33,420 bases of DNA. Origin: Gordonibacter sp. An230. GTDB taxonomy: Bacteria; Actinomycetota; Coriobacteriia; Coriobacteriales; Eggerthellaceae. The notes under the pieces are model-generated. The model worked only from the letters and a program-made list of their open reading frames with translations. It did not search any database and was not told where the DNA came from. The translations under genes and the position numbers were made by a program. Location of the stretch: NCBI RefSeq assembly GCF_002159915.1, contig NZ_NFJP01000036.1:1-33420 (forward strand), in the 5' to 3' direction. Positions 14,477-31,325 of this stretch are shown piece by piece; position 1 is the stretch's first letter; the number at the start of each line of letters is the position of its first letter.

Positions 14477-14524
14477 GGACCCTCCCTTCCACGCGATCGC
14501 AGGCCGGCGCAGTTGACCACCGGA

Positions 14525-14623
14525 GGGCGCCTCCGCACCTGAGGTCGCGGAGAAAACGAGGGCGAGGGACGCTTCGACACGCGAACCCTCGCCCTCGACA
14601 CGAGATCAGGCGCGGAGGCGCCC
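14525..14623 (-). terminator. metG terminator nested inside a second inverted repeat
   Basis: The inner stem is a perfect 12 bp (14557-14568 with 14586-14597) around a 17-nt loop, and on the minus strand TTTTCTC follows, giving a good intrinsic terminator about 60 bp past metG. It is enclosed by a second perfect 12-bp inverted repeat (14525-14536 with 14612-14623), arms GGGCGCCTCCGC and its complement, making a two-tier structure. Confidence 0.75.
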
Positions 14624-14655
14624 CGCAACGTCGAACGGTTCCGCCGATCATCAGA

Positions 14656-16683
14656 TCAGCGGAGTTGAGAAGGATGCTTGGCGAAGAAGTCGAAGCGGGG
14701 CGGCAGCTCGCGGATGCGATGACGCCCCGCGTCCTGCTCGCTGGCGCCGCACAGCTCGTCCATGCTTTCGAAATCGTAGTTCCAGCTGAAGAAGTCGTCG
14801 AACTCGAAGCTCAGGTAGTCGCAGATCTTCTCCGTGCCGAAGGGCACCACGGGATGCATGAGAAGCGTGGCGATGCGAAGCAGGTAGAACGAGTCGACGA
14901 GCACCTGGCGACGCGCCGCATCGTCGCTCGAAAGCTCCGCCTCCCGAATGCCATCGGCCCAACGCTTGTTCGCCCAGCGGATGAACTCGTCCATGAGCGA
15001 CATGACGGTGTGCAGCTCCACGCGATGCATCGCCTCGTCGTAGGCGGCGAGCGTCCTCTGAGCCCTTTCCACCGCATCGCGGGACACCTCGCCAAGCGGC
15101 AAATGCCCCTCGAAGTTCTTCTGCGCCTCGTAGAAGCAGCTGCGGGCCAGGCGGTTGAACACGTTCGTGAGCAGCGCGCCCTCCTTGAGCACCGGATCTG
15201 CGACGCGGGGATCGGCCAGCTCCTCGGGCGTGGCAAGGAAGGGCTTGGGCTTGAAACCCACCGATCTCTGATCGAGGCCGAGCGCGAGGAAGTGCGCGCG
15301 CAGCTGCTCGACCGTGTAGTGGTCGAGCAGCTCGTCGGCCGCGGGCGGCTTCACCGCCCCCGACGAAGAGGCCTTCTTGTCTCCGAACAGGATGTGGTGG
15401 TTCGCCACGAGCGTGGTCTGGCGGATGGGGTGTTCGGAAGGACCGGGGGCGAGGATGTCCCCAGGTCGCAGCGCCTCGATCATGGCAGGCTGGGCCACGC
15501 CGTAAAAATACAGGTTGTCCTGCCCTATGAACTGGTACACCTCGGCGTCCTCCGAGCACCACCAATCCCGCCAGCTGCCTCGCGGCAAGCCCATTTGATC
15601 GTTCACCGCCATCGTGAACGACATGGGCGCCCACAGGCTCTCGGGCCAGCACCACACCGTGAGGCCGTCGAGGCCGTCGATGACAGGCGCCTTCACGCCC
15701 CATTCGATATTGCCCGTGATACGGAACGGCACGAGCGCCTTGCCGGTGCGGAAGCGGATGCCCGCGCGGGCCAGCACCTCGCGCGCCGCGTCGCGCGCAT
15801 CGATGTCGGCGAATTCGATCTCGAAGCTCTGCTTGCCCTTCTCCGCCTCCCTCAGCGCATGCGCAGGCAGCTCTCCCGCCACCTCCTCGTAGGCCTCGCG
15901 CGCCTCGTTTTTGATGTGGACGACGGGCGCGCCGAGGAATTCCTTGATGGTCTGAGGCACGATGGCGCGCACGTTCGGATCGGCTTCGAGCGCCGCCACA
16001 TGCGCGCGTAGGAAGTCGGCGAACGCGGGCAGATCGAAGTACCAGTTCTCTACCGGGCGCATCTCGGGCACCGTGCCCGTGAGCGTCGACTTCGGCGCTA
16101 TGAGGTCCTCGGGCGCGTAACTGTGGCCGAGATCGCACTCGTCGGCGTAGCCATGCTCGGACTTGCATCCCTGCACGGGGCAGCGGCCCTGCACCTGCCG
16201 GCCATTGAGGAACGTGCCCGCCTCGACGTCGTAGAACTGCAGCGTGGCACGCTTGCGCAAATGCCCGTTCTCATGCAGCTTCTCGATGAACTTCTCGCTG
16301 ATGAGCTGGTGGACATCGCCCGAATGCCCGATGTTGGAACCCTCGTAGATGTCGAGGCTGATGCCAAAGGCCGAAAGCGCGGCCTTCTGGCGCTCGTGAT
16401 TGGCCAGCACGTACTCCTCGATGGTGCCGTCGAACTCCCCCGCCTCGACAAGCTTGCGGTATCCCTCGTTGATGGGCGAACCGAAGCAGTCGGTGCCGCT
16501 TATGAAGCGGACGTTCGCCGCGCCGATGCGGTCGCGCAAAAAGCGCGCGAAGGCGTCGGCCGGCACGAAAACGCCGGCGATGTGGCCGAAGTGCAGGGCT
16601 TTGTTGCCGTAGGGCATGCCAGCGGTGACGACGGCCCGCTTGGGCCAAGGCGTGCGTTCCGTGTCAGTGCGCGATGCTGCCAT
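14656..16683 (-). CDS. metG: Methionyl-tRNA synthetase (atypical)
   Basis: 675-aa class I synthetase that charges tRNA-Met. The HIGH-type motif is HFGH (31-34) within TAGMPYGNKALHFGH. A zinc-knuckle-like Cys set (168, 173, 183) follows, then ITGNIEWGVKAP and FIGQDNLYFY. The canonical KMSKS loop is not seen; its place (436-442) has KKASSSG. Residues ~255-320 form extra sequence between the knuckle and the IEWG segment. ATG at 16683 follows AAGGAG at 10 nt and lies inside the end of sppA (20-nt overlap), so translation is probably coupled. It is the last gene of the fsa-rho-sppA-metG cluster, with a strong terminator after it. Confidence 0.92.
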   Translation of the reverse strand: MAASRTDTERTPWPKRAVVTAGMPYGNKALHFGHIAGVFVPADAFARFLRDRIGAANVRFISGTDCFGSPINEGYRKLVEAGEFDGTIEEYVLANHERQKAALSAFGISLDIYEGSNIGHSGDVHQLISEKFIEKLHENGHLRKRATLQFYDVEAGTFLNGRQVQGRCPVQGCKSEHGYADECDLGHSYAPEDLIAPKSTLTGTVPEMRPVENWYFDLPAFADFLRAHVAALEADPNVRAIVPQTIKEFLGAPVVHIKNEAREAYEEVAGELPAHALREAEKGKQSFEIEFADIDARDAAREVLARAGIRFRTGKALVPFRITGNIEWGVKAPVIDGLDGLTVWCWPESLWAPMSFTMAVNDQMGLPRGSWRDWWCSEDAEVYQFIGQDNLYFYGVAQPAMIEALRPGDILAPGPSEHPIRQTTLVANHHILFGDKKASSSGAVKPPAADELLDHYTVEQLRAHFLALGLDQRSVGFKPKPFLATPEELADPRVADPVLKEGALLTNVFNRLARSCFYEAQKNFEGHLPLGEVSRDAVERAQRTLAAYDEAMHRVELHTVMSLMDEFIRWANKRWADGIREAELSSDDAARRQVLVDSFYLLRIATLLMHPVVPFGTEKICDYLSFEFDDFFSWNYDFESMDELCGASEQDAGRHRIRELPPRFDFFAKHPSQLR

Positions 16684-21955: not shown

Positions 21956-22322
21956 GTCGAAAACCTCGGCATCTACGAAAAGAACACCCCGTTATGCTGC
22001 GAATAATGAGAAGCGTTGCGATTTGGAATCTCCAACCTTCGTCCCTTCAGCCGTTGACTACAAAGGCATGCATGAAATGAGATATGTCGCTTTTACAAAA
22101 TACCATCGTACTCCAGCTGCAACCATGGAATTCTCCGCACCCGATACGCTTTTGGATTCGACGGGAAAAGCGGTCATGTTGCCGCTGTTGATGCAATCAC
22201 GTTCTCTAAGCCGGTTGGCATTTTTCGTAAGAGCGGTTCGGGATTCGGCCCCTTGCTGCGCAAAAGCAGCAAACGCAAGCCCGATATCGGCCGTCAGCCT
22301 ACTTCCGAGTCTAGCGCAAAGA
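21956..22322. other. Low-GC spacer between hisI and the lipoprotein gene
   Basis: No convincing gene is present. A 96-codon open frame on the minus strand (22058-22348) overlaps hisI and has no ribosome site. GC is near 50%, clearly below the flanks. Confidence 0.45.
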
Positions 22323-22667
22323 CTAGGAAGGCGGAAACCATCGATCACCTACGCTGATCGAGCGGAAGAAACAAGAGCGTGTGCCCGTGTGGCAGGCGGG
22401 TCCTGCCGGATGCACGAGCGCAAGCAGCGTGTCGGCGTCGCAGTCGTAGCGCAGCTCCACGACCTTCTGGGTGTTGCCGCTGGTGGCACCCTTGTGCCAG
22501 AGCTCTTGCCTGCTGCGGCTCCAGAACACCGTCTCGCCGCGCTCCATCGTAAGCGAAAGCGATTCCTCGTTCATCCACGCCATCATGAGCACCTCGAGCG
22601 TGTCCGCGTCCTGCACGATGCAGGGGATCAGCCCGTCGGCGTTGTAAGTCAGTTCAGGGACGTCCAT
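22323..22667 (-). CDS. hisI: Phosphoribosyl-AMP cyclohydrolase
   Basis: 114-aa enzyme of the third step of histidine synthesis, opening the purine ring of PR-AMP. Metal and zinc ligands are visible: YDCDADT (Asp75, Cys76, Asp77, Asp79), then ACHTG (Cys92) and SCFF (Cys99). Only the HisI domain is present; the HisE pyrophosphohydrolase is neither fused nor nearby. ATG at 22667 has GAGGAG at 8 nt. A 7-bp inverted repeat (22341-22347 with 22355-22361) lies within the last codons. hisI is separated from hisF by a decayed yhcG and is probably read from the promoter at 23206-23234. Confidence 0.94.
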
Positions 22668-23104
22668 GATGTTTTCTCCTCGCTCGCAAATTGCGCAACA
22701 GCTGCCGCGCTAGCGCCTTCTCGCATCCGCTTCTCGATATCCTCCTGCAAAGGCAGCAACTCGGCGAACCCCTCCGGCAGCACCTCGGCGAGCCGATACT
22801 CGCTCACCCCCATCGGCTTGCCGTGTCGCGCAGAACGTACTCGGCTACCACGTTGCCTTTGGTCTTAATTTCAACCCTCGCTCCCCTTGCAGAGAGCGAC
22901 CAAACCAAAAGACTTTGATTACGAAGCACCGCACGACTCCACCCGTTCTCGATGGTGGCCTGCACGGACCACTCGCGTTCAGCCCCTGGTTCCGTCTTAT
23001 CGGGAAGGTGGGTTATACGGCCCCAGGGAATTCTGCAGCAGCTGCTGCAGAATTCAGAATCCACCTCAGTGGCGAACTTCTGCATCGTTATTGTTGGCGA
23101 GCAT
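22649..23104 (-). pseudogene. yhcG-like (DUF1016, PDDEXK nuclease) pseudogene
   Basis: About 456 bp remain of a gene usually near 1 kb. ATG at 23104 follows GAGGAGG and gives MLANNNDAEVRH, then a stop. In another frame IPWGRITHL and ATIENGWSRAVLRNQ match the DUF1016 N-terminal domain. There the sequence jumps to the C-terminal end: SFGLVALCK in one frame, NVVAEYVLRDT in another, and, after a 1-nt slip near 22818, KPMGVSEYRLAEVLPEGF to a stop at 22649. The nuclease core between is deleted. The remnant overlaps the hisI start by 19 nt. YhcG proteins often accompany mobile or restriction loci. Confidence 0.8.
23028..23055. repeat. Perfect 28-bp palindrome inside the yhcG remnant
   Basis: Arms GAATTCTGCAGCAG (23028-23041) and CTGCTGCAGAATTC (23042-23055) are exact reverse complements with no spacer. 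It lies where DUF1016 would encode the residues just before IPWG. The origin is unknown: it may be an inversion-duplication scar or the footprint of a lost element. Confidence 0.75.
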
Positions 23105-23175
23105 GGCACAGCCTCCTCTTTCCTCTATTCGAGCATTCACAAGGCTGTCCCGAGAACCGCGGCGAAAGCGCCGGG

Positions 23176-23234
23176 CTTGGTTAGGCTTCTTGCCAACCAA
23201 GAAGCAGTATAGCAAACACTTGTTCTTATTTCAA
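23176..23234 (-). promoter_or_regulatory. Strong promoter with overlapping hairpins before the yhcG remnant and hisI
   Basis: On the minus strand TTGAAA (23229-23234), 17 bp, then TATACT (23206-23211) preceded by TGC: a near-consensus extended promoter. Immediately after the -10 lies an 8-bp inverted repeat GCTTCTTG/CAAGAAGC (23185-23192 with 23198-23205). It overlaps a second possible pairing, CTTGGTT/AACCAAG (23176-23182 with 23195-23201). The two exclude each other and could serve as operator or attenuator. The promoter now most likely drives hisI. Confidence 0.65.
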
Positions 23235-23245
23235 GTAGAGAAGCG

Positions 23246-24010
<765 letters not shown>

Positions 24011-24019
24011 CTTCGTCCT

Positions 24020-24159
24020 TCCGTCGTCGCTGACGCAACGACGGACGTGCCGACGCTGCGCGGGCCTCTCGCGGCCCGTTTGCCGCTCCAGTCACGTGCC
24101 AAGGCACGCTTCGTCAAACCTTCCCGGCAACCGCGCTCGCGAGAGGCTCGCTCGCTGAC
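24020..24159 (-). repeat. Structured repeat copy D between hisA and hisF (inverted)
   Basis: This spacer contains the repeat in the orientation opposite to copies A-C. The box CTCGCTGAC (24151-24159) is the complement of GTCAGCGAG, and GCCGACGCTGC begins at 24050. Long-stem arms 24064-24084 and 24126-24147 pair at 19 of 21 positions with one bulge, yet share no sequence with the stems of A-C. The apical CGTGC/GCACG hairpin (24095-24108) is kept, as is the small terminal hairpin (24020-24027 with 24038-24045). Confidence 0.75.
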
Positions 24160-24177
24160 CGTGCCGGAACCTCAACG

Positions 24178-24951
24178 CTACAATCCGCAGGGATTCGCAG
24201 CCACGGCGGCCGCTTCCGCGATGCGCGTGGCCTCGGCGCAGGCACGCACGCCGTCGGCCACCGTGAGCGTGCCCTCGTACACGGCGCGCCCCGCGATGAC
24301 GCCCTCGATGCAGCCGGCCACACGGCCGAGCGCCTCGATGTCGGCGATGCCGGCCACGCCGCCCGACGCGGTCACCGGATGGCCGAACGCCTCGGCCATC
24401 CGCACATAGGCGGCCGGGTCGATGCCGGTCTGCATCCCGTCGCGCGCGATGTCGGTGTACACGAGGTGCCGGAATCCGAGCGCCGCCATGTCGCGTGCCA
24501 GCTCCTCGGCCGCCACGCCCGCGCCCTCGCGCCAGCCGGCCACGGCCACCTCGCCGCCCTTCGCGTCGATGCCTGCGCACAAGAGCTTGCCGTACTGCGC
24601 GATGGCGGCCTCGGCGAAGGCGGGATCGGCCACGAGCGACGTGCCCAGCACCACGCGCGACACGCCCGCGTCGGCCAGGCGCGCGATGGTGTCGAGCGAG
24701 CGCACGCCGCCGCCCACCTCCACCTTGAGCAGCGTCTTGCGCATGATGCGCTCGATGATGGCGATGTTCTCAGGCGTGCCCGAGCGCGCGCCGTCGAGGT
24801 CCACCACGTGCAGCCACGTCGCGCCCTGCTCTTCGAACAGCTGCGCCTGCGCGGCGGGGTCGTCGTGGTACACGGTCACGCGGCTATAATCGCCCTTGGC
24901 GAGGCGGACGGCCAAGCCGTCCAGGATGTCGATGGCCGGAAGCAGGTACAC
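24178..24951 (-). CDS. hisA: Phosphoribosylformimino-5-aminoimidazole carboxamide ribotide isomerase
   Basis: 257-aa TIM-barrel isomerase converting ProFAR to PRFAR. It shows YLLPAIDILDGLAVRL with the catalytic Asp, the LHVVDLDGA strand, VEVGGGVRS, YTDIARDGMQTG with the second Asp, and TASGGVAG. The start is GTG at 24951, only three bases after the hisH stop, with a GGGG site inside hisH, so translation is coupled. The Trp-pathway PriA variant is possible in Actinobacteria, but nothing here proves dual substrate use. Confidence 0.94.
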   Translation of the reverse strand: MYLLPAIDILDGLAVRLAKGDYSRVTVYHDDPAAQAQLFEEQGATWLHVVDLDGARSGTPENIAIIERIMRKTLLKVEVGGGVRSLDTIARLADAGVSRVVLGTSLVADPAFAEAAIAQYGKLLCAGIDAKGGEVAVAGWREGAGVAAEELARDMAALGFRHLVYTDIARDGMQTGIDPAAYVRMAEAFGHPVTASGGVAGIADIEALGRVAGCIEGVIAGRAVYEGTLTVADGVRACAEATRIAEAAAVAANPCGL

Positions 24952-24954
24952 GGC

Positions 24955-25638
24955 TCACGCCCCTTTCACGATGGACACGAAATTGCGCAGCAGACGCGCT
25001 CCGGCGTCCGAACTCTTCTCGGGATGGAACTGCACGCCGAACGCGACGTCGCCGTACTGGACGGCGCTCGGGAACGTCACGCTGTGCGCGGTCTCGCCGA
25101 TGACGAACGGGCCCGACGGCGCGATGAAACCGTGCGTGAAGTAGAAGTAGGTGCCCGACGGTATGCCGTCGAACAGGGGCGAGCTCCCATCGACCTCGCC
25201 CTCCTGCCGCTCGCCGGGAAACCGCACCGTGTTCCAACCCACGTGGGGCACCTTGTAGGAGAGGCCTTGGTCATCCTGTTTTGGCATCGCGCCCACGACG
25301 CCGGGTAGCACGGCGAGGCCGCGGGCGTTGTGCGTGGAGGACTCGTCGTCCTCGTCGGGCGCGCCCTCGACGCCCTCCTCGAACATGAGGTGCATTCCCA
25401 GGCAGATGCCCAAGAACGGCACGCCGGCGGCGATGCGATCGCGCACGACGCCGGCCTGCCCGAGCGCCTCCATCGTGGCGGCCGCGTCGGCGAACGCGCC
25501 CACGCCCGGCAGCACGACGGCGTCGGCGCGGGCGATGACGGCAGCGTCGTCGGTGACGAGCACGTCGCCCCCCGCGGCCGCCAAGCCGCGCTCGACGCTC
25601 TTCAGGTTGCCCTTACGGTAGTCGACGATGGCAATCAT
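24955..25638 (-). CDS. hisH: Imidazole glycerol phosphate synthase glutaminase subunit
   Basis: 227-aa class I glutamine amidotransferase that supplies ammonia to HisF. It begins MIAIVDYRKGNLKSVERGL, has LPGVGAF, the nucleophile in GICLGMHLMFEEG, and the His-Glu pair in QFHPEKSS. ATG at 25638 matches the family start but has no good Shine-Dalgarno site. The frame stays open upstream through repeat copy A (TTG at 25758 onward), giving a peptide ending ISGTAKTLAD, which may or may not be translated. Confidence 0.95.
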   Translation of the reverse strand: MIAIVDYRKGNLKSVERGLAAAGGDVLVTDDAAVIARADAVVLPGVGAFADAAATMEALGQAGVVRDRIAAGVPFLGICLGMHLMFEEGVEGAPDEDDESSTHNARGLAVLPGVVGAMPKQDDQGLSYKVPHVGWNTVRFPGERQEGEVDGSSPLFDGIPSGTYFYFTHGFIAPSGPFVIGETAHSVTFPSAVQYGDVAFGVQFHPEKSSDAGARLLRNFVSIVKGA

Positions 25639-25671
25639 AGTCGCATGTTCCAATCTCACGTACCCGATCAT

Positions 25672-25821
25672 GTCAGCGAGGGTTTTCGCGGTGCCCGAGA
25701 TTGGCGTGTTTCGCGGCCGAGCGTGCTTCGCACGTGAGGGTAAGCGAAAAAGCGCCAAGATCGGGTGCCGCGGAAGCCCGCAGCGTCGGCCCGTTCCGGC
25801 GGCCGTCAGGCCGACGGAACC
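25672..25821 (+). repeat. Structured repeat copy A between hisB and hisH
   Basis: A 150-bp copy that starts GTCAGCGAG at 25672 and ends one base before the hisB stop codon. Module 1 is a long hairpin: arms 25681-25714 and 25744-25778 form about 27 Watson-Crick pairs, topped by CGTGC-TTC-GCACG (25722-25734). A box GCAGCGTCGGC leads into module 2, a 28-nt hairpin (25793-25820) with GTTCCG/CGGAAC at its base. Copy B is about 90% identical. Confidence 0.85.
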
Positions 25822-26415
25822 CTACAGCGCGCCCTTCGTGGAAGGCAGGGCGTCGCCGATGCGCGGGTCGCATTCGACGGCCTGGCGCAGGGCCCGCGCG
25901 GCGGCCTTGAACGACGCCTCCACCAGGTGGTGCGCGTTCTCGCCCGCCAAGCTGCGCACATGCAGGGTAAGGCCCGCGTTCGCGGCGAAGGCGATGAAGA
26001 ACTCCTTGGCGAGCGACGCGTCGAACGAGCCCAGCATGACGCACGGTACGTCCACGGCCCAGTGCAGCTGACCGCGGCCGGAGATGTCAACGGCCGCCAG
26101 CACGAGCGCCTCGTCCATCGGCAGCGCGAGCGAGCCGAACCGCGCGATGCCGCGCTTGTCGCCGAGCGCACGGGCGACGGCCTGGCCCAGCACGATGCCC
26201 GTGTCCTCGACCGTGTGGTGCCCGTCGACCTCGAGGTCGCCCTTCGCGCGGACGTCGAGGTCGAACAGCCCGTGCCGCCCGAACGCCGCGAGCATGTGGT
26301 CGAAAAACCCGATGCCCGTCTCCGCGTCGACGATGCCCGTGCCGTCGAGGTTCACGGCGATGCGGATGTCCGTCTCGTTCGTGGTGCGCTCGACAATGGC
26401 AGTTCGTTGGTTCAT
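25822..26415 (-). CDS. hisB: Imidazoleglycerol-phosphate dehydratase
   Basis: 197-aa monofunctional IGP dehydratase without the histidinol phosphatase domain. It has VNLDGTGIVDAETGIGFFDHML, the manganese-binding DGHHTVEDTG, RGIARFG, ENAHHLVEASFKAAARAL and a normal C-terminus. ATG at 26415 starts at the family-conserved N-terminus; GAGA is the only site upstream. The frame is open further through repeat copy B, giving a peptide close to the one upstream of hisH. Each neighbour is separated by a structured repeat. Confidence 0.96.
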   Translation of the reverse strand: MNQRTAIVERTTNETDIRIAVNLDGTGIVDAETGIGFFDHMLAAFGRHGLFDLDVRAKGDLEVDGHHTVEDTGIVLGQAVARALGDKRGIARFGSLALPMDEALVLAAVDISGRGQLHWAVDVPCVMLGSFDASLAKEFFIAFAANAGLTLHVRSLAGENAHHLVEASFKAAARALRQAVECDPRIGDALPSTKGAL

Positions 26416-26451
26416 GTTCGTCTCTTTCTCTAAGCTCACTGGTCCAGCAAA

Positions 26452-26650
26452 GTCAGCGAGGGCTTTCGTGGTGCCCGAGATTGGCGTGTTTCGCGGCCGA
26501 GCGTGCTTTTGCACGTGAGGGCAAGCGAAAAAGCGCCAAGATCGGGTGCCACGGAAGTCCGCAGCGTCGGCCCGTTCCGGCGGCCGGCAGGCCGTCGGAA
26601 TCCGAACCGCAGCGTCGGCCCGTTCCGGCGGCCGTCAGGCCGACGGAACC
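26452..26650 (+). repeat. Structured repeat copy B between hisC and hisB, module 2 duplicated
   Basis: A 199-bp copy in the same orientation as A. Long-hairpin arms are near 26461-26494 and 26525-26559, with apical CGTGC-TTTT-GCACG. Relative to A, one stem pair changed from C-G to T-A on both arms, a compensatory change. The 42-bp terminal module occurs twice, at 26559-26600 and 26607-26648. The last 16 bases lie inside hisC and supply its final codons (Val-Pro-Ser-Ala) and its TGA. Confidence 0.85.
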
Positions 26651-27726
26651 TTCAAGTCGCACTTCCCCATCACGGCATCGCGCAAGGCGCGCAAGAACGC
26701 GTCGTTCTCCTCACGTGAGCCGATGCTCACGCGCAGGCAGTCCTCCAAGCCCGGCGCGCGCGAGAAATCGCGCACGAGCACGCCGCGGCCGTAGAGCATC
26801 TCCCAGGCGGTGCCGGCGTTCTCCAGGCGGAACAGCACGTAGTTCGCGTCCGACGGGTACGGCTTCACGCCGGGGATGCGCTTGAGGCCGTCGACGACGC
26901 GGGCGCGCTCCTCGATGATGGCGCGGATGCCCGGCTCGAACTTCGCGCGGTTCGCGTACACGACGCGCGCGATGGCCTGCGACACGGCGTCCACCGAGTA
27001 CGGCTGGCGCACCTTGACGAACTCGCGGATGACCTCGGCGTCGCCCAGAAGGTAGCCCATGCGCACACCGGCCAGGGAGAACGCCTTCGAGAACGTGCGC
27101 AGGATCACGAGGTTCTTGTGCTGTGCCAGGTAGGGGCGCATCGTCTGGCGCGAGAACTCGAAGTACGCCTCGTCCACCATGACGAGCGCGTCGGTGGCGT
27201 CGAGCACGCGCAGCATGAACTCCTCGCTGGCGAGCTGGCCCGTGGGATTGTTGGGGCTCGTGATGACGAGGTAGTCGATGCCGCCCTCGGCCAGGCGCGC
27301 GAGCACGGCCTCCTCGTCGATGGAGAAGTCGGGCCGACGCGGCACGTCCACCACCGCCGTGTTCGTGAGGCGCGCGTTCGCCTCGTACACCGAGAACGTG
27401 GGTGGCAGGTTCAAGCACGTGCGGCCCGGCCCGCCCCACGCGAGCGCAAGGTTGAACAGCAGCTCGTCGCCGCCGTTGCCCACGAGCACCTGGTCGCGGT
27501 CGAGCCCGTTCGCCTCGGCGATCATGTCGCGCAGGTCGTTGGCGAGCGGATCCGGGTAGCGGTTCAAGGCCACGCGCTTCACCTCGCGCATGATCTCGTG
27601 GCGAACCTCCTGATCCACGTCGTGCGGGTTCTCGTTCGCCGAGAGGAGCGCATCGGCCGGCAGGTACTTGGGGTCGTAGGGCGTAAGGCCCGCGAGCTGC
27701 GGGGCCGAGCAGCACACGCTACGCAT
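26635..27726 (-). CDS. hisC: Histidinol-phosphate aminotransferase
   Basis: 363-aa PLP-dependent class I/II aminotransferase. It has SANENPHDV near the start, GNGGDELL, TSPNNPTGQ, DEAYFEFS, and the PLP lysine in RTFSKAFSLAGVRMGY. ATG at 27726 overlaps the hisD stop by 8 bases and has GGTGGAG just upstream; GTG at 27735 is an alternative. The final codons come from repeat copy B, so the natural C-terminus was probably altered when the repeat inserted or spread. Confidence 0.95.
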   Translation of the reverse strand: MRSVCCSAPQLAGLTPYDPKYLPADALLSANENPHDVDQEVRHEIMREVKRVALNRYPDPLANDLRDMIAEANGLDRDQVLVGNGGDELLFNLALAWGGPGRTCLNLPPTFSVYEANARLTNTAVVDVPRRPDFSIDEEAVLARLAEGGIDYLVITSPNNPTGQLASEEFMLRVLDATDALVMVDEAYFEFSRQTMRPYLAQHKNLVILRTFSKAFSLAGVRMGYLLGDAEVIREFVKVRQPYSVDAVSQAIARVVYANRAKFEPGIRAIIEERARVVDGLKRIPGVKPYPSDANYVLFRLENAGTAWEMLYGRGVLVRDFSRAPGLEDCLRVSIGSREENDAFLRALRDAVMGKCDLKVPSA

Positions 27727-29071
27727 CGGCTCCACCGTCCCCGCGGCGCGCCCCGTCGCCGCCCTCGATCCCGTAGACGTTGCCCCAGTCGAGCAGGTTC
27801 TTGCGCATCTCGACGCTCATCGCGTGCGCCCACAGGCCCTCGTGGCGCGCGATGGCCATGACGGCGTCGGCATCGTCGGCGAGCGCGGCCGAGGAGTACT
27901 GGATGACGCTCGACTTCTTCACGAAGTCGTCGACGGAAAGCGGCGAGGAGAAGCGAGCCGTGCCGCCGGTTGGCAGCGTGTGGTTGGGGCCGGCCACGTA
28001 GTCGCCCACAGCCTCGGGCGTCCACGCGCCCAGGAAGATGGCGCCGGCATTGCGGATGGCGCCCAAGAGGTCGAAGGCGTGGTCAACGTGCAGCTCCAAG
28101 TGCTCGGGCGCGATGACGTTCACGGCCTCGACAGCCTGCGCCAAGTCCTGGCACACTACGACGAGCCCCTGGTCGGCGAGCGACGCCGTCGTGATCTCGG
28201 CGCGCGTGGAGGACGCGAGGTGGCGTTCCACCATGCGCTCCACCTCGTCGGCGTACTCCTCGTCGAGGACGACCAGGTAGCATGCGGCAAGCGGGTCGTG
28301 CTCGGCCTGGGCCATGAGGTCGATGGCCACGAGCGCGGGGTCGGCCGTGGAGTCGGCCACGACGCACACCTCGGAGGGACCGGCGATCATGTCGACGCCC
28401 ACATCGCCCGACACGATCTTCTTCGCGGCCGCCACGTAGGCGTTGCCGGGGCCGGTGATCTTGTCCACCGGCGCGATGGACTCGGTGCCGTAGGCGAGCG
28501 CGGCCACCGCCTGCGCGCCGCCCACCGCGTAGATCTCGGTGACGCCGGAAAGGCGGCAGGCCTCGATGACGGCGGGGTCGAGTGAGCCGTCGGCGGTGGG
28601 AGGCGTGACGCACACGATGCGCTTCACGCCCGCAACAGCGGCCGGCAGCGCGTTCATCAGCACCGACGACGGGTAGAGCGCGCGTCCGCCCGGCACGTAG
28701 ATGCCCACGGACTCCAGCGGCTCCACCTTCGAGCCCACGAGCGCGCCGTCCTCGCGCACGGTGAACCAGCTCTGCTGGCGCTGGCGCTCGTGGAAGTCGC
28801 GGATCTGCTTCGCGGCAGCGCGCAGGGCGTCTGCCAGCTTGTCGTCGACCGCGGCTGCGGCCTCGGCGATGGCGGCCTGGCTCACGCGGAAGCCCTCCAC
28901 GCGCACGCCGTCGAACTTTTCCGTGAGCTCGCGCAGAGCGGCGTCGCCCCGTTCGCGCACGTCCTCGACGATGGCGGTGGCCGCCGTGAGCGCGGCTGCG
29001 TTGAACGCGCCGGTACGCTTGAGGTGGGCGTTGGAGAATTCCTCGCCTGCTTTGAGGATGATGCGGCGCAT
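27719..29071 (-). CDS. hisD: Histidinol dehydrogenase
   Basis: 450-aa zinc enzyme catalysing the last two oxidations, histidinol to histidine, with NAD. It shows GIYVPGGRALYPSSVLMNALPA, KITGPGNAYVAAAKK, MIAGPSEVCVVAD, the zinc-site histidines in QAEHDPLA and EHLELHVDHA, and GPNHTLPTGGTARFSSPLSVDDF. The C-terminal ~15 residues are Gly/Asp/Ala-rich. ATG at 29071 follows AAGGAAG and lies 3 bp after the hisG stop; it overlaps hisC at the other end. Confidence 0.97.
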   Translation of the reverse strand: MRRIILKAGEEFSNAHLKRTGAFNAAALTAATAIVEDVRERGDAALRELTEKFDGVRVEGFRVSQAAIAEAAAAVDDKLADALRAAAKQIRDFHERQRQQSWFTVREDGALVGSKVEPLESVGIYVPGGRALYPSSVLMNALPAAVAGVKRIVCVTPPTADGSLDPAVIEACRLSGVTEIYAVGGAQAVAALAYGTESIAPVDKITGPGNAYVAAAKKIVSGDVGVDMIAGPSEVCVVADSTADPALVAIDLMAQAEHDPLAACYLVVLDEEYADEVERMVERHLASSTRAEITTASLADQGLVVVCQDLAQAVEAVNVIAPEHLELHVDHAFDLLGAIRNAGAIFLGAWTPEAVGDYVAGPNHTLPTGGTARFSSPLSVDDFVKKSSVIQYSSAALADDADAVMAIARHEGLWAHAMSVEMRKNLLDWGNVYGIEGGDGARRGDGGADA

Positions 29072-29074
29072 GGT

Positions 29075-30877
29075 CTACTTCCTTTCCTCGGCGGCCGCGC
29101 TCAGCGCGTCGCGCGCGAGCGTGCGGGCCAATTGTACGATACGCGCGTCGGTGCGGAACGCGCAGGTGTTCGAGAAGAAGCGGGCGGTCGAGGAGAGCAC
29201 CTCGTCGACCACCACGAGGTCGTTCTCGCGCAGGGTTGTGCCGGTTGCCGTGATGTCCACGATGCGCTCGGCCATGCCCGTGAGCGGGGCGAGCTCGATG
29301 TTGCCGTGCAGCTTCACGATCTCCACCTGGACGCCGGTCTTGGCGTAATGGGCGGCCGTGATGCGCGGGTACTTCGTGGCCACGCGGATGGAGCCGAGAC
29401 GGCGATAGTGCTCGCCCGTGGCCTCGGCGGCTCCGGCGGGCTCGGCCACGACGAAGCGGCACGCGCCGTATCCGAGGTCGACGAGCTCCACGACGTCGCG
29501 CTCGGCCTCGAGCAGCGAGTCCTTGCCGCAGATACCGCAGTCCGCCGCGCCCGACGCCACGAAGGCCGGCGCGTCGGTGGGCCGCACGATGACGTACTCG
29601 ACGCCGGGGTTGCGGATGATGAGCTGCCGCCCCGGGTTCGCAAGGCCGGTTACATCGAGGCCCGCCGCCTCGAGCGCCGCCACCGTGTCGGCGTTGAGCG
29701 AGCCCTTCGGCACCGCGATGCGCAGGGGCTTTGAATCCGCAGGTTCGCACCTGTCAGCGAGGGCTTCCCCGGCATCCGAGATCGTGGGGATGACGGAGGC
29801 GTGGCGCACTTCGGCACGCGAGCCTCCGGCATCGCCGCGAGATCGGGCGCCAGGGGAAGCCGCAGCGTCGGCACGTTCCGTCGGCCGGCAAGCCGGCGGA
29901 ACGGAAGACGCCGCCATGGCCTGCTCGAGGAAGAAGGCGAAGCCGGCGGCGGGACGGCTCTCGCCGTAGGCGGCGACCATGTTGTCGTAACGGCCGCCGC
30001 TGCCGAGCGGCGAACCCAGACCGGGCGCATAGGCCTCGAACACGATGCCCGTGTAGTAGTCGAACGAGCTCATGACCGAGAAGTCCACAAGCAGTTTATC
30101 GGCCAGCCCGCGATCGGCCAGCAGGTCGAACGTGACCGCGAACGCGTCGAGGCCGCCCTCGCAGCCGAGCGGCTCCACGAGCGCGCGCACCTCGTCGATA
30201 GCCTCGCGCCCCCCGCGGATGCGCGGCAGGGCGCGGATGGCCGAGGCAAACGCCGACGGAACGCCTGCCTCGGCGGCGCCATCCCCCGTCAGGCGGTCGA
30301 GCTCGACGAAGTTGGAGCGGTGGTAGGCGTCGAGCACCTGCTCCCTCCACGCTTCGGGAGCCCCACAAGAGGCGAGCAGCGCCCGCAGCACACCCACGGT
30401 GGCGAGCGCCAGGCGGCAGCCGCGCGCGCCGACCAGCTCGAGCGCATTGGCGAGCAGCTCCACCACCTCGGCATCGGCCCAGGCGCCGGCCTCGCCGACG
30501 CACTCGATGCCGATCTGCGTCATCTCGCGCGCCTCGGCCTGCGCACGTCCGTCGGCCTCGCGGAACACGCGCTGCATGTAGCGGAAGCGCAGCGGCCCCG
30601 CCTGTCCGGCGAAGCGCGTCGCGCACATGCGCGCCACCTGCAGCGTCACGTCGGGGCGCATGGCCAGGAGGTCGCCCCGCGCGTCGAAGAATTTGAACGG
30701 CGATCCCGGCACGCGGCCGCCCGCGCGCATGACGTCCATGACCTCGAGCGTGGGCGTCTCGATGGGCAGGTAGCCGCGCTCGGCGAAGCACGCTTGCACG
30801 TCGCGGGCGATGCGCTCGCGCGCCGCCGCCTCGTCGCACAGCACGTCCCGGAATCCCGCCGGCGTCACCAGGTTCAT
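29075..30877 (-). CDS. hisZG: HisZ-HisG fusion: ATP phosphoribosyltransferase regulatory plus catalytic subunits
   Basis: 600-aa fusion for the first step of histidine synthesis. Residues 1-~322 are HisZ, a HisRS-like regulatory subunit without anticodon domain (LVTPAGFRDVL, DVTLQVARM, FRYMQRVFREADGR, the late GSGGRYDNM). Residues ~384-600 are short-form HisG (RIAVPKGSLNADT, CGICGKDSLLE, KYPRITAAHYAKTG, DITATGTTLREN). HisZ and short HisG normally act together as separate chains. The linker (about 325-375) is the translation of repeat copy C. No stop or frameshift separates the halves. ATG at 30877 follows AAGAGGCGAGG; an in-frame ATG at 30952, inside the leader palindrome, is an alternative. 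Confidence 0.93.
   Translation of the reverse strand: MNLVTPAGFRDVLCDEAAARERIARDVQACFAERGYLPIETPTLEVMDVMRAGGRVPGSPFKFFDARGDLLAMRPDVTLQVARMCATRFAGQAGPLRFRYMQRVFREADGRAQAEAREMTQIGIECVGEAGAWADAEVVELLANALELVGARGCRLALATVGVLRALLASCGAPEAWREQVLDAYHRSNFVELDRLTGDGAAEAGVPSAFASAIRALPRIRGGREAIDEVRALVEPLGCEGGLDAFAVTFDLLADRGLADKLLVDFSVMSSFDYYTGIVFEAYAPGLGSPLGSGGRYDNMVAAYGESRPAAGFAFFLEQAMAASSVPPACRPTERADAAASPGARSRGDAGGSRAEVRHASVIPTISDAGEALADRCEPADSKPLRIAVPKGSLNADTVAALEAAGLDVTGLANPGRQLIIRNPGVEYVIVRPTDAPAFVASGAADCGICGKDSLLEAERDVVELVDLGYGACRFVVAEPAGAAEATGEHYRRLGSIRVATKYPRITAAHYAKTGVQVEIVKLHGNIELAPLTGMAERIVDITATGTTLRENDLVVVDEVLSSTARFFSNTCAFRTDARIVQLARTLARDALSAAAEERK
29753..29903 (+). repeat. Structured repeat copy C inside hisZG, translated as linker
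   Basis: It starts GTCAGCGAGGGCTTCCCC and ends with the GTTCCG/CGGAAC hairpin (29875-29902), preceded by GCAGCGTCGGCACGTTCCG, as in copies A and B. Long-stem arms 29762-29800 and 29822-29861 pair at about 32 of 39 positions, although most of the stem differs from A and B. On the minus strand it is open in the HisZ-HisG frame and encodes about 50 residues. The box reads Leu-Ala-Asp in the same frame as the open frames upstream of hisH and hisB. Confidence 0.82.
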
Positions 30878-30931
30878 TCCTCGCCTCTTCCTTTCGCTGG
30901 CCGGCCGCAGCCGGGATGGCGTCGATGCGAA

Positions 30932-30955
30932 CGAATGCTTCACGTGAAGCATTCG
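30932..30955. promoter_or_regulatory. Perfect 24-bp palindrome, parS-like, in the his leader
   Basis: The centre reads TGCTTCACGTGAAGCA, which matches the ParB site consensus TGTTTCACGTGAAACA at 14 of 16 positions, with the two changes symmetric. The perfect symmetry extends four bases further on each side. It lies in the transcribed leader, 55-78 bp before the hisZG ATG, so a leader hairpin or repressor operator are alternatives. Confidence 0.55.
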
Positions 30956-31005
30956 CCCCGGAGCCGCGACGCGCCTGAGGCACGCTGCAGTCCTCGCGCT
31001 CCGAT

Positions 31006-31033
31006 ACTTTATCACAGTAGAGTGCTAAAGCAA
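31006..31033 (-). promoter_or_regulatory. Promoter of the his operon
   Basis: The minus strand has TTGCTT (31028-31033), 16 bp, then TAAAGT (31006-31011) preceded by TGA, an extended -10. The leader would be about 120 nt and includes the 24-bp palindrome. No His-rich leader peptide, T-box or terminator is seen. Confidence 0.5.
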
Positions 31034-31034
31034 G

Positions 31035-31325
31035 CGTTTTCAACGATACGCATCATTTTACGACACGAACGGCCGCGGGCCCGCCCGCATGCGCAGAGCC
31101 GCGCCGAATCGAGCGCGATCCGCACAAAAAACTTCTTCGTGAATGCCCGGCAGGCGGAAAAGGGCGGCCATCGGCTTCCTGAAGCAGAAAAGTTCTAGCG
31201 TTTCCCCAGTTCATGAAAAAACAGCGTTCGTGTCGGTCGCTGAAAACCTTTCACGTGGAGGATTTTCGTGCGCAAGAGGCTCGGTTGGCGTGCAGCCGCC
31301 TCGAAGCTCGTTCGACGCTATGCAG
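31035..31325. other. Divergent spacer between the his operon and padR
   Basis: About 290 bp with no supported gene. An open frame of 46 codons from ATG 31213 runs into the padR promoter and lacks a ribosome site. A half-match to the parS core, TTTCACGTGGAG, lies near 31250. Confidence 0.45.

Follow-up and report, generated by a model that had tools for sequence, protein, structure and literature searches.

Protein-coding palindromes are best known from the Rickettsiales. The Rickettsia and Wolbachia palindromic elements (RPE and WPE) are described as interspersed palindromes that lie in frame in unrelated conserved proteins, where they encode a recognisable peptide, and that are also intergenic; their insertion sites are common to some orthologues and missing in others (PMC10969869, PMC3767692, PMC2229807). 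The length of RPEs is given as 105–146 bp (PMC2229807), and they are also described as elements of ~105–150 bp that lie in frame in Rickettsia genes. For Methanocaldococcus jannaschii, PMC2229807 cites a paper about coding palindromic repeats, and a 2024 review regards a process similar to that of the Rickettsiales coding palindromes as conceivable in other prokaryotes (PMC10969869). REPs, as described in PMC3733652, lie mainly downstream of genes and can supply stop codons, and some lie inside ORFs of several species. As to the host gene studied here, HisZ and HisG are separate chains in the solved structures of its relatives (5m8h, 8oy0, 1z7m, 1usy). Fusions of the two have already been published, since PMC9413887 reports hisZ and hisG fused in various genomes; its passages on the subject name neither the fusion of the present lineage nor the linker, and the word hisZ is absent from the text of PMC1963479, which it cites for the fusion. 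A literature search of titles and abstract openings returned no paper on the HisZ-HisG fusion of this lineage.

The window, by which we mean the whole 33,420-nt stretch of DNA analysed here, carries on its minus strand a single open frame of 600 codons running from 30877 to 29075. This gene, hisZG, encodes a fused ATP phosphoribosyltransferase with a HisZ-like regulatory half followed by a short HisG. Profile searches place PF13393 (HisRS-like, HisZ fold) at residues 8–319, which corresponds to 29921..30856 on the minus strand, and PF01634 (HisG) at residues 432–587. TIGR00443 (HisZ) covers residues 10–323 with 272.3 bits, barely over its cut-off of 271.65, and TIGR00070 (HisG) covers residues 385–567 with 190.8 bits against a cut-off of 75.75. 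The TIGR00070 and PF01634 stretches together delimit the HisG half (residues ~385–587; 29117..29725, minus strand), which is the short form with the C-terminal regulatory domain absent; no other domain was matched in the chain, whose last residue is 600.

Between the two halves lies a complete copy of a repeat, in frame, at 29738..29904 on the minus strand (residues ~325–380; covariance model). The repeat model R1, built on 14 copies from elsewhere in the genome with the linker copy excluded, matches it over its full length (model positions 1–170 of 170; 148.9 bits, E 7e-34), and the copy spans both end boxes of the repeat. A chance match is excluded because, with nhmmer, the best of 2,060 codon-shuffled linkers reaches 7.1 bits (E 0.048), against 123.4 bits for the real linker. 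In the AlphaFold2 prediction residues 336–378 are the only segment with a pLDDT under 50, the mean over the protein being 86, and the repeat-encoded linker of ~56 residues is probably disordered. The earlier note on this DNA had read the locus as one frame joining HisZ to HisG, with a linker of ~50 residues that coincides with a repeat copy including both end boxes, so that a normally non-coding hairpin would serve as a protein linker. These readings stand: both Pfam and TIGRFAM profiles match the two halves, the linker is a full-length match to the repeat, and it is an in-frame copy of a hairpin repeat that is mostly intercistronic. We also considered whether the linker frame is specially free of stops, as a coding design would be, and rejected this; it is open in 31 of the 72 other repeat copies, against an expectation of 0.38. 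Among the other frames two antisense and one sense are clearly more open than expected, and one sense frame is less so.

The repeat unit is 164–171 nt long in an alignment of 14 genome copies and the linker copy. A small 5' hairpin comes first, followed by the conserved box GCCGACGCTGCGG and a long, imperfectly paired hairpin, and the unit closes with the end box CCTCGCTGACTT..CGCCAACCTGCG. RNAalifold predicts 44 base pairs for the 14 copies, of which 33 are backed by one or more two-sided compensatory changes; the three copies of the his operon have folding energies that lie 3.9 to 6.2 standard deviations below those of shuffled sequence. Identity with a known RNA family was rejected, as an Rfam scan of window positions 22000–31200 gave no family at gathering score, and a literature search found no description of this repeat family. 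The covariance model recognises 39 copies in this genome (50 rows minus seven reverse-strand echoes of the palindrome and four low-scoring rows). The repeat is present in all 24 relatives searched, with from at least three to at least 64 matches each, a count based on 117 candidates scored per genome and inclusive of reverse-strand echoes. A survey of 149 genomes of the class, with stricter filters that lose weak matches, found it in 37, all within families f1–f3 of one order. We recognised no target duplication by eye at the hisB-hisH and hisZG sites, the end boxes are inverted only loosely by comparison with the terminal inverted repeats of MITEs, and no mobilising enzyme was identified for the repeat. 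Mobilisation by RAYT-type transposases was rejected, since the presence of Y1 transposases does not follow copy number in 14 genomes: Y1_Tnp is absent from G070 and G041, with at least 48 and at least 60 repeat matches, and three are present in G040, with at least three matches. This genome has one Y1_Tnp gene.

Most copies lie at the ends of genes. Of the 39 copies in the genome, 35 have a co-directional upstream gene, gene directions being those given by a small codon model for which this window served as training set; 25 of these follow the stop codon of that gene (17 within 6 nt), seven enclose it and three are read through, namely those in hisZG, the tail of PhnJ and the tail of CarA. Within the window, complete copies found by the covariance model on the minus strand separate hisC from hisB (26437..26603) and hisB from hisH (25657..25822), the latter beginning at the hisB stop codon. 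Ahead of the hisC-hisB copy stands a second 5' hairpin with its box (26607..26650, minus strand), which encodes the C-terminus of hisC (..KVPSA-stop), so that the hisC stop codon comes from the 5' hairpin of the repeat. Two further copies are diverged: one between hisA and hisF lies antisense to the his genes (24016..24174, plus strand; 62 bits), and one (14498..14667, minus strand; 98 bits) lies at the 3' end of an ORF that we take to be a methionyl-tRNA synthetase gene. The names of hisC, hisB, hisH, hisA and hisF are likewise our assignments from the sequence. At the hisC site Candidatus Gordonibacter avicola keeps only the 5' hairpin, and in the sister lineage G003 a different repeated stretch (TGTCATCCTGAGCGAGCG..., the L037/L238 pair) supplies the hisC stop. 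The 166 bp of repeat that separate hisB from hisH in the window have no counterpart in G003, whose two genes overlap (TGATG) and leave no spacer. We note that the open frames of hisH and hisB extend upstream into the repeat (window 25638–25758 and 26415–26514), and automatic annotation may therefore set their starts too early, inside the repeat.

HisZG is not the only protein with the repeat in frame. The leucyl-tRNA synthetase (LeuRS) of this genome carries an antisense copy in frame at the border of the editing domain (L192; G000, C8:74302-74469), which it has in common with Candidatus Rubneribacter avistercoris, and the LeuRS of the Gordonibacter MAG G036 holds one in sense orientation at this very site. 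Independent insertion at a single site therefore does happen. The repeat is present in LeuRS in these three of 24 genomes; the other 21 have an unbroken match, and none of the 13 of these that were scanned contains it. A search with the linker peptide, which uses the frame of the linker and is biased to that frame, returned in-frame copies within PriA (G041 and G031), MurD (G075), a coproporphyrinogen oxidase family protein (G063) and a PorC-PorD-type 2-oxoacid:ferredoxin oxidoreductase with a delta-type domain (L327 in G070, L313 in G094 and L324 in G023), and all four host families were confirmed by profile; the oxidoreductase of G092 (L357) has the repeat too. G070, G092 and G031 presumably belong to the genus Eggerthella, and G070 is presumably a match to Eggerthella lenta. 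In the PorC-PorD-type protein the repeat sits between two 4Fe-4S motifs, and the gene, found in 14 of 17 genomes, has a full copy in four, a partial one in two (weak, E 0.001 and 0.005) and none in eight. PriA gives an unbroken match in 13 of 17 genomes, and G027 has a partial copy; the PriA motif scan caught six of the 17 loci. Of the 30 loci from the linker-peptide search, 11 have long open flanks on both sides, six have an internal stop and 13 a short flank; two of the 11, L330 and L334, are relatives' open frames in which translation would continue across the repeat, and no family search confirmed their host proteins. The encoded peptides share 22–43 identical residues with the HisZG linker over 44–65 aligned positions, always above 500 shuffles. 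Since most were found by their likeness to the linker, this alignment is descriptive and not an independent test, although the G036 LeuRS and PhnJ were found independently of that search.

To follow the insert in the linker itself, we compared the hisZ-hisG junctions at 158 loci. HisZ and HisG halves lie in one frame at 155 of these; the loci comprise two overlapping sets (L021–L099, and L100–L178 from named genomes, the window included), and the fused loci are hence also counted as 103 distinct proteins. Of the three loci not scored as fused, L050 and L168 lack the HisG half at a contig end. At L115, from an Adlercreutzia MAG, HisZ and HisG are in different frames, as a result of either a frameshift or a true split. 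By nhmmer at E below 1e-3 the repeat is present in seven of the 103 distinct linkers, all in one orientation and with the frame kept. Copies are nearly full-length in the window, Ca. Gordonibacter avicola and Candidatus Aphodovivens avistercoris G052, and partial or diverged in G092, G089, Gordonibacter 28C and Aphodovivens G083. The linker of G006 gives an eighth, weak match (E 0.003 with nhmmer, 1e-9 with the covariance model), and that of Enteroscipio G066 retains the 3' box alone (E 0.15), its flanks matching those of Ca. G. avicola. We built a quick tree of both halves without the linker (102 rows, one short protein having been dropped; 26 of 99 inner branches left open and some branches long), on which the repeat is present in eight rows and needs at least six changes, and on which the repeat label is mildly clustered (16 of 500 shuffles as low).

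This distribution could reflect a single ancestral insertion in the Gordonibacter-Eggerthella-Enteroscipio-Rubneribacter group, with many later losses that were partial or complete, as opposed to repeated independent insertions at a hot spot. The insertion point, orientation and frame are the same in the window, Ca. G. avicola and Gordonibacter 28C, which have a common 5' junction (..GCx TCT TCx, then GTTCCG), and nearly the same in G092; the remnant 3' box of Enteroscipio G066 follows the same TCTTCG flank, and the pattern of full, partial and absent copies recurs in the PorD-type protein. Against this, the inserts of G052 and G089 occupy other linker positions, the G052 copy is closest to others from the same genome (support 0.97), and LeuRS has received opposite orientations at one site, antisense in two genomes and sense in a third. 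The window and Ca. G. avicola have linker copies of one subfamily, yet these are not each other's nearest copies. We regard a single ancestral insertion as quite conceivable, with a chance that falls just short of even. We also note that the HisZG linker of Gordonibacter P2775 holds another repeated stretch, TGTCATCCTGAGCGAGCG... (the L037/L238 pair), which we take to be a widespread repeat. The same letters stand in the hisC-hisB spacer of G003, where they supply the hisC stop, and different repeats therefore exploit the same tolerant places.

An alternative of another kind is that the repeat linker is functional, its length or its mRNA hairpin being selected, for example to tune the coupling of HisZ to HisG or translation. 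The hairpin of the linker copy is very stable (-89 kcal/mol, z -6.2), and long linkers recur: the 103 linkers, mostly of 8–20 residues, measure at most 22 residues in 87 proteins and at least 28 in 16, most of these 16 being repeat-free. However, a stable hairpin characterises the repeat family as a whole, shortened copies are frequent, the linker is predicted to be disordered, and the sister lineage and most relatives manage without a repeat linker. Selection on the insert is thus improbable in our estimation. The linker of L093, at 96 residues, contains an internal duplication, so linkers lengthen by other means too.

By comparison of the genomes, the fusion is an old trait of the order and predates the repeat insert. 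The tree pairs the window with G003 (SH-aLRT 90; halves 89 and 94% identical), and G003 is fused through a linker of 12 residues with no repeat. In families f2 and f3 of the order all 12 loci are fused, with linkers of 16–28 residues that contain no repeat at E below 0.1, whereas in other orders hisZ and hisG are separate, adjacent and co-directional at eight of eight loci, and the hisZ stop lies 23–29 nt ahead of where the HisG domain is projected to begin; these 12 and eight loci were picked by hand among the matches and are not a random sample. The unfused HisZ proteins of other orders (L301–L308) continue for 103–105 residues beyond the matched region, or 123 in one where the match ended earlier, and fused HisZ is without this C-terminal part of ~100 residues. 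Because unfused HisZ is longer by this amount, the fusion looks like a deletion, and the simplest fusing event would be an in-frame deletion that removed ~100 codons at the HisZ C-terminus along with the stop and a short spacer.

The earlier note had proposed the reverse order of events, with an intercistronic repeat inserting at the hisZ stop, removing it and so fusing the genes. The usual position of the repeat at stops is in keeping with this idea (25 of 35 copies after a stop, 17 of them within 6 nt, seven containing it and three reading through), and the fusion and the repeat family, as sampled, are both confined to the order, so that a very old link between them retains a slight chance. 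Yet most fused relatives are without a trace of the repeat, the sister G003 is among them, as are the f2 and f3 loci, and an insertion would not remove the ~100 residues that are missing from fused HisZ. With 155 of 158 loci fused and the repeat in seven of 103 linkers, the repeat as cause of the fusion is refuted for this lineage, and we consider the proposal very unlikely as a whole. The note had itself named fusion through unrelated linkers in all relatives as a result that would speak against it, and this is largely what we found, since fusion is near-universal and most relatives share it with other linkers. The other result that it had named, an assembly or sequencing error masking a stop between two genes, has a negligible chance of being correct and was rejected, as 103 distinct proteins show the fusion and come from a large number of independent assemblies, of which several are single-contig genomes.

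An old fusion made by deletion, followed in some lineages by in-frame insertion of the repeat into a tolerant linker, is the reading that we hold with high confidence, on the strength of these sequence comparisons. The deletion, across adjacent hisZ and hisG, would date from the base of the order or close to it; it would have taken ~100 C-terminal hisZ codons, the stop and the spacer, and left a single chain with a short linker, typically of 8–20 residues. In a later step that some lineages went through, this one among them, a ~170-nt palindromic repeat able to move or amplify would have inserted in frame into that linker, to be read as a probably disordered spacer of ~56 residues that the enzyme appears to tolerate. 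Copies that land in frame at tolerant places would survive and could be translated; in other lineages the insert may have shrunk through in-frame deletions, often with loss of the long hairpin, or vanished. The element would have entered other proteins in the same way, and hence would work like the coding palindromic elements of Rickettsia.

More generally, and tentatively, Coriobacteriales may possess protein-coding palindromes of their own, which prefer stops and domain borders and the sense orientation, lengthen linkers and tails (HisZG, LeuRS, PriA, PorD, MurD, CarA and PhnJ), supply disordered segments and are possibly inserted under the guidance of RNA or of the hairpin. We put this wider picture forward as a possibility rather than as the probable case. 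It would concern an actinobacterial family, related to the culturable Eggerthella and Gordonibacter, in which full copies, in-frame remnants and empty sites are found at the same places of core enzymes, and the family makes testable both the non-lethal entry of a hairpin element into coding sequence and the neutrality of such inserts. The picture of the locus is also corrected, in that the fusion of HisZ with HisG has long been characteristic of the order and seems to have been accompanied by loss of the HisZ C-terminus.

Compared with the short-form HisZ-HisG ATP phosphoribosyltransferase, the enzyme has the same two subunits (TIGR00443 and TIGR00070) but as a single chain, with a HisZ that is C-terminally shorter than the unfused HisZ of other orders. 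The repeat resembles the GTAG/CGTC-tagged REPs in lying mostly downstream of genes, in being able to provide stop codons and in having some copies within ORFs, and differs from the REP/REPIN systems with RAYT in its unit of ~170 nt, as against a tagged palindrome of 20–40 bp, and in that RAYT-type transposases do not follow its copy number. Its closest parallel is with the Rickettsia and Wolbachia palindromic elements, a likeness that is set by their published descriptions and claims no relation in sequence. Here too the element is a stem-loop palindrome (three copies with z from -3.9 to -6.2, and covariation at 33 of 44 pairs), and it gives a similar peptide in frame in unrelated proteins, namely HisZG, LeuRS, PriA, the PorD-type protein, MurD and the coproporphyrinogen oxidase family protein. 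It likewise occurs between genes, and some orthologues have it at a site where others lack it. With in-frame copies in several core proteins, the analogy to Rickettsia palindromic elements that the earlier note had drawn therefore holds. In contrast to RPE and WPE, most copies here lie at or near stop codons in sense orientation, and copies are in frame in both orientations. The copies are 164–171 nt long with two hairpins, as against the 105–146 bp of RPEs, and their hosts are Coriobacteriales (Actinomycetota) and not Rickettsiales; the repeat is therefore not classed as an RPE, although it works like one.
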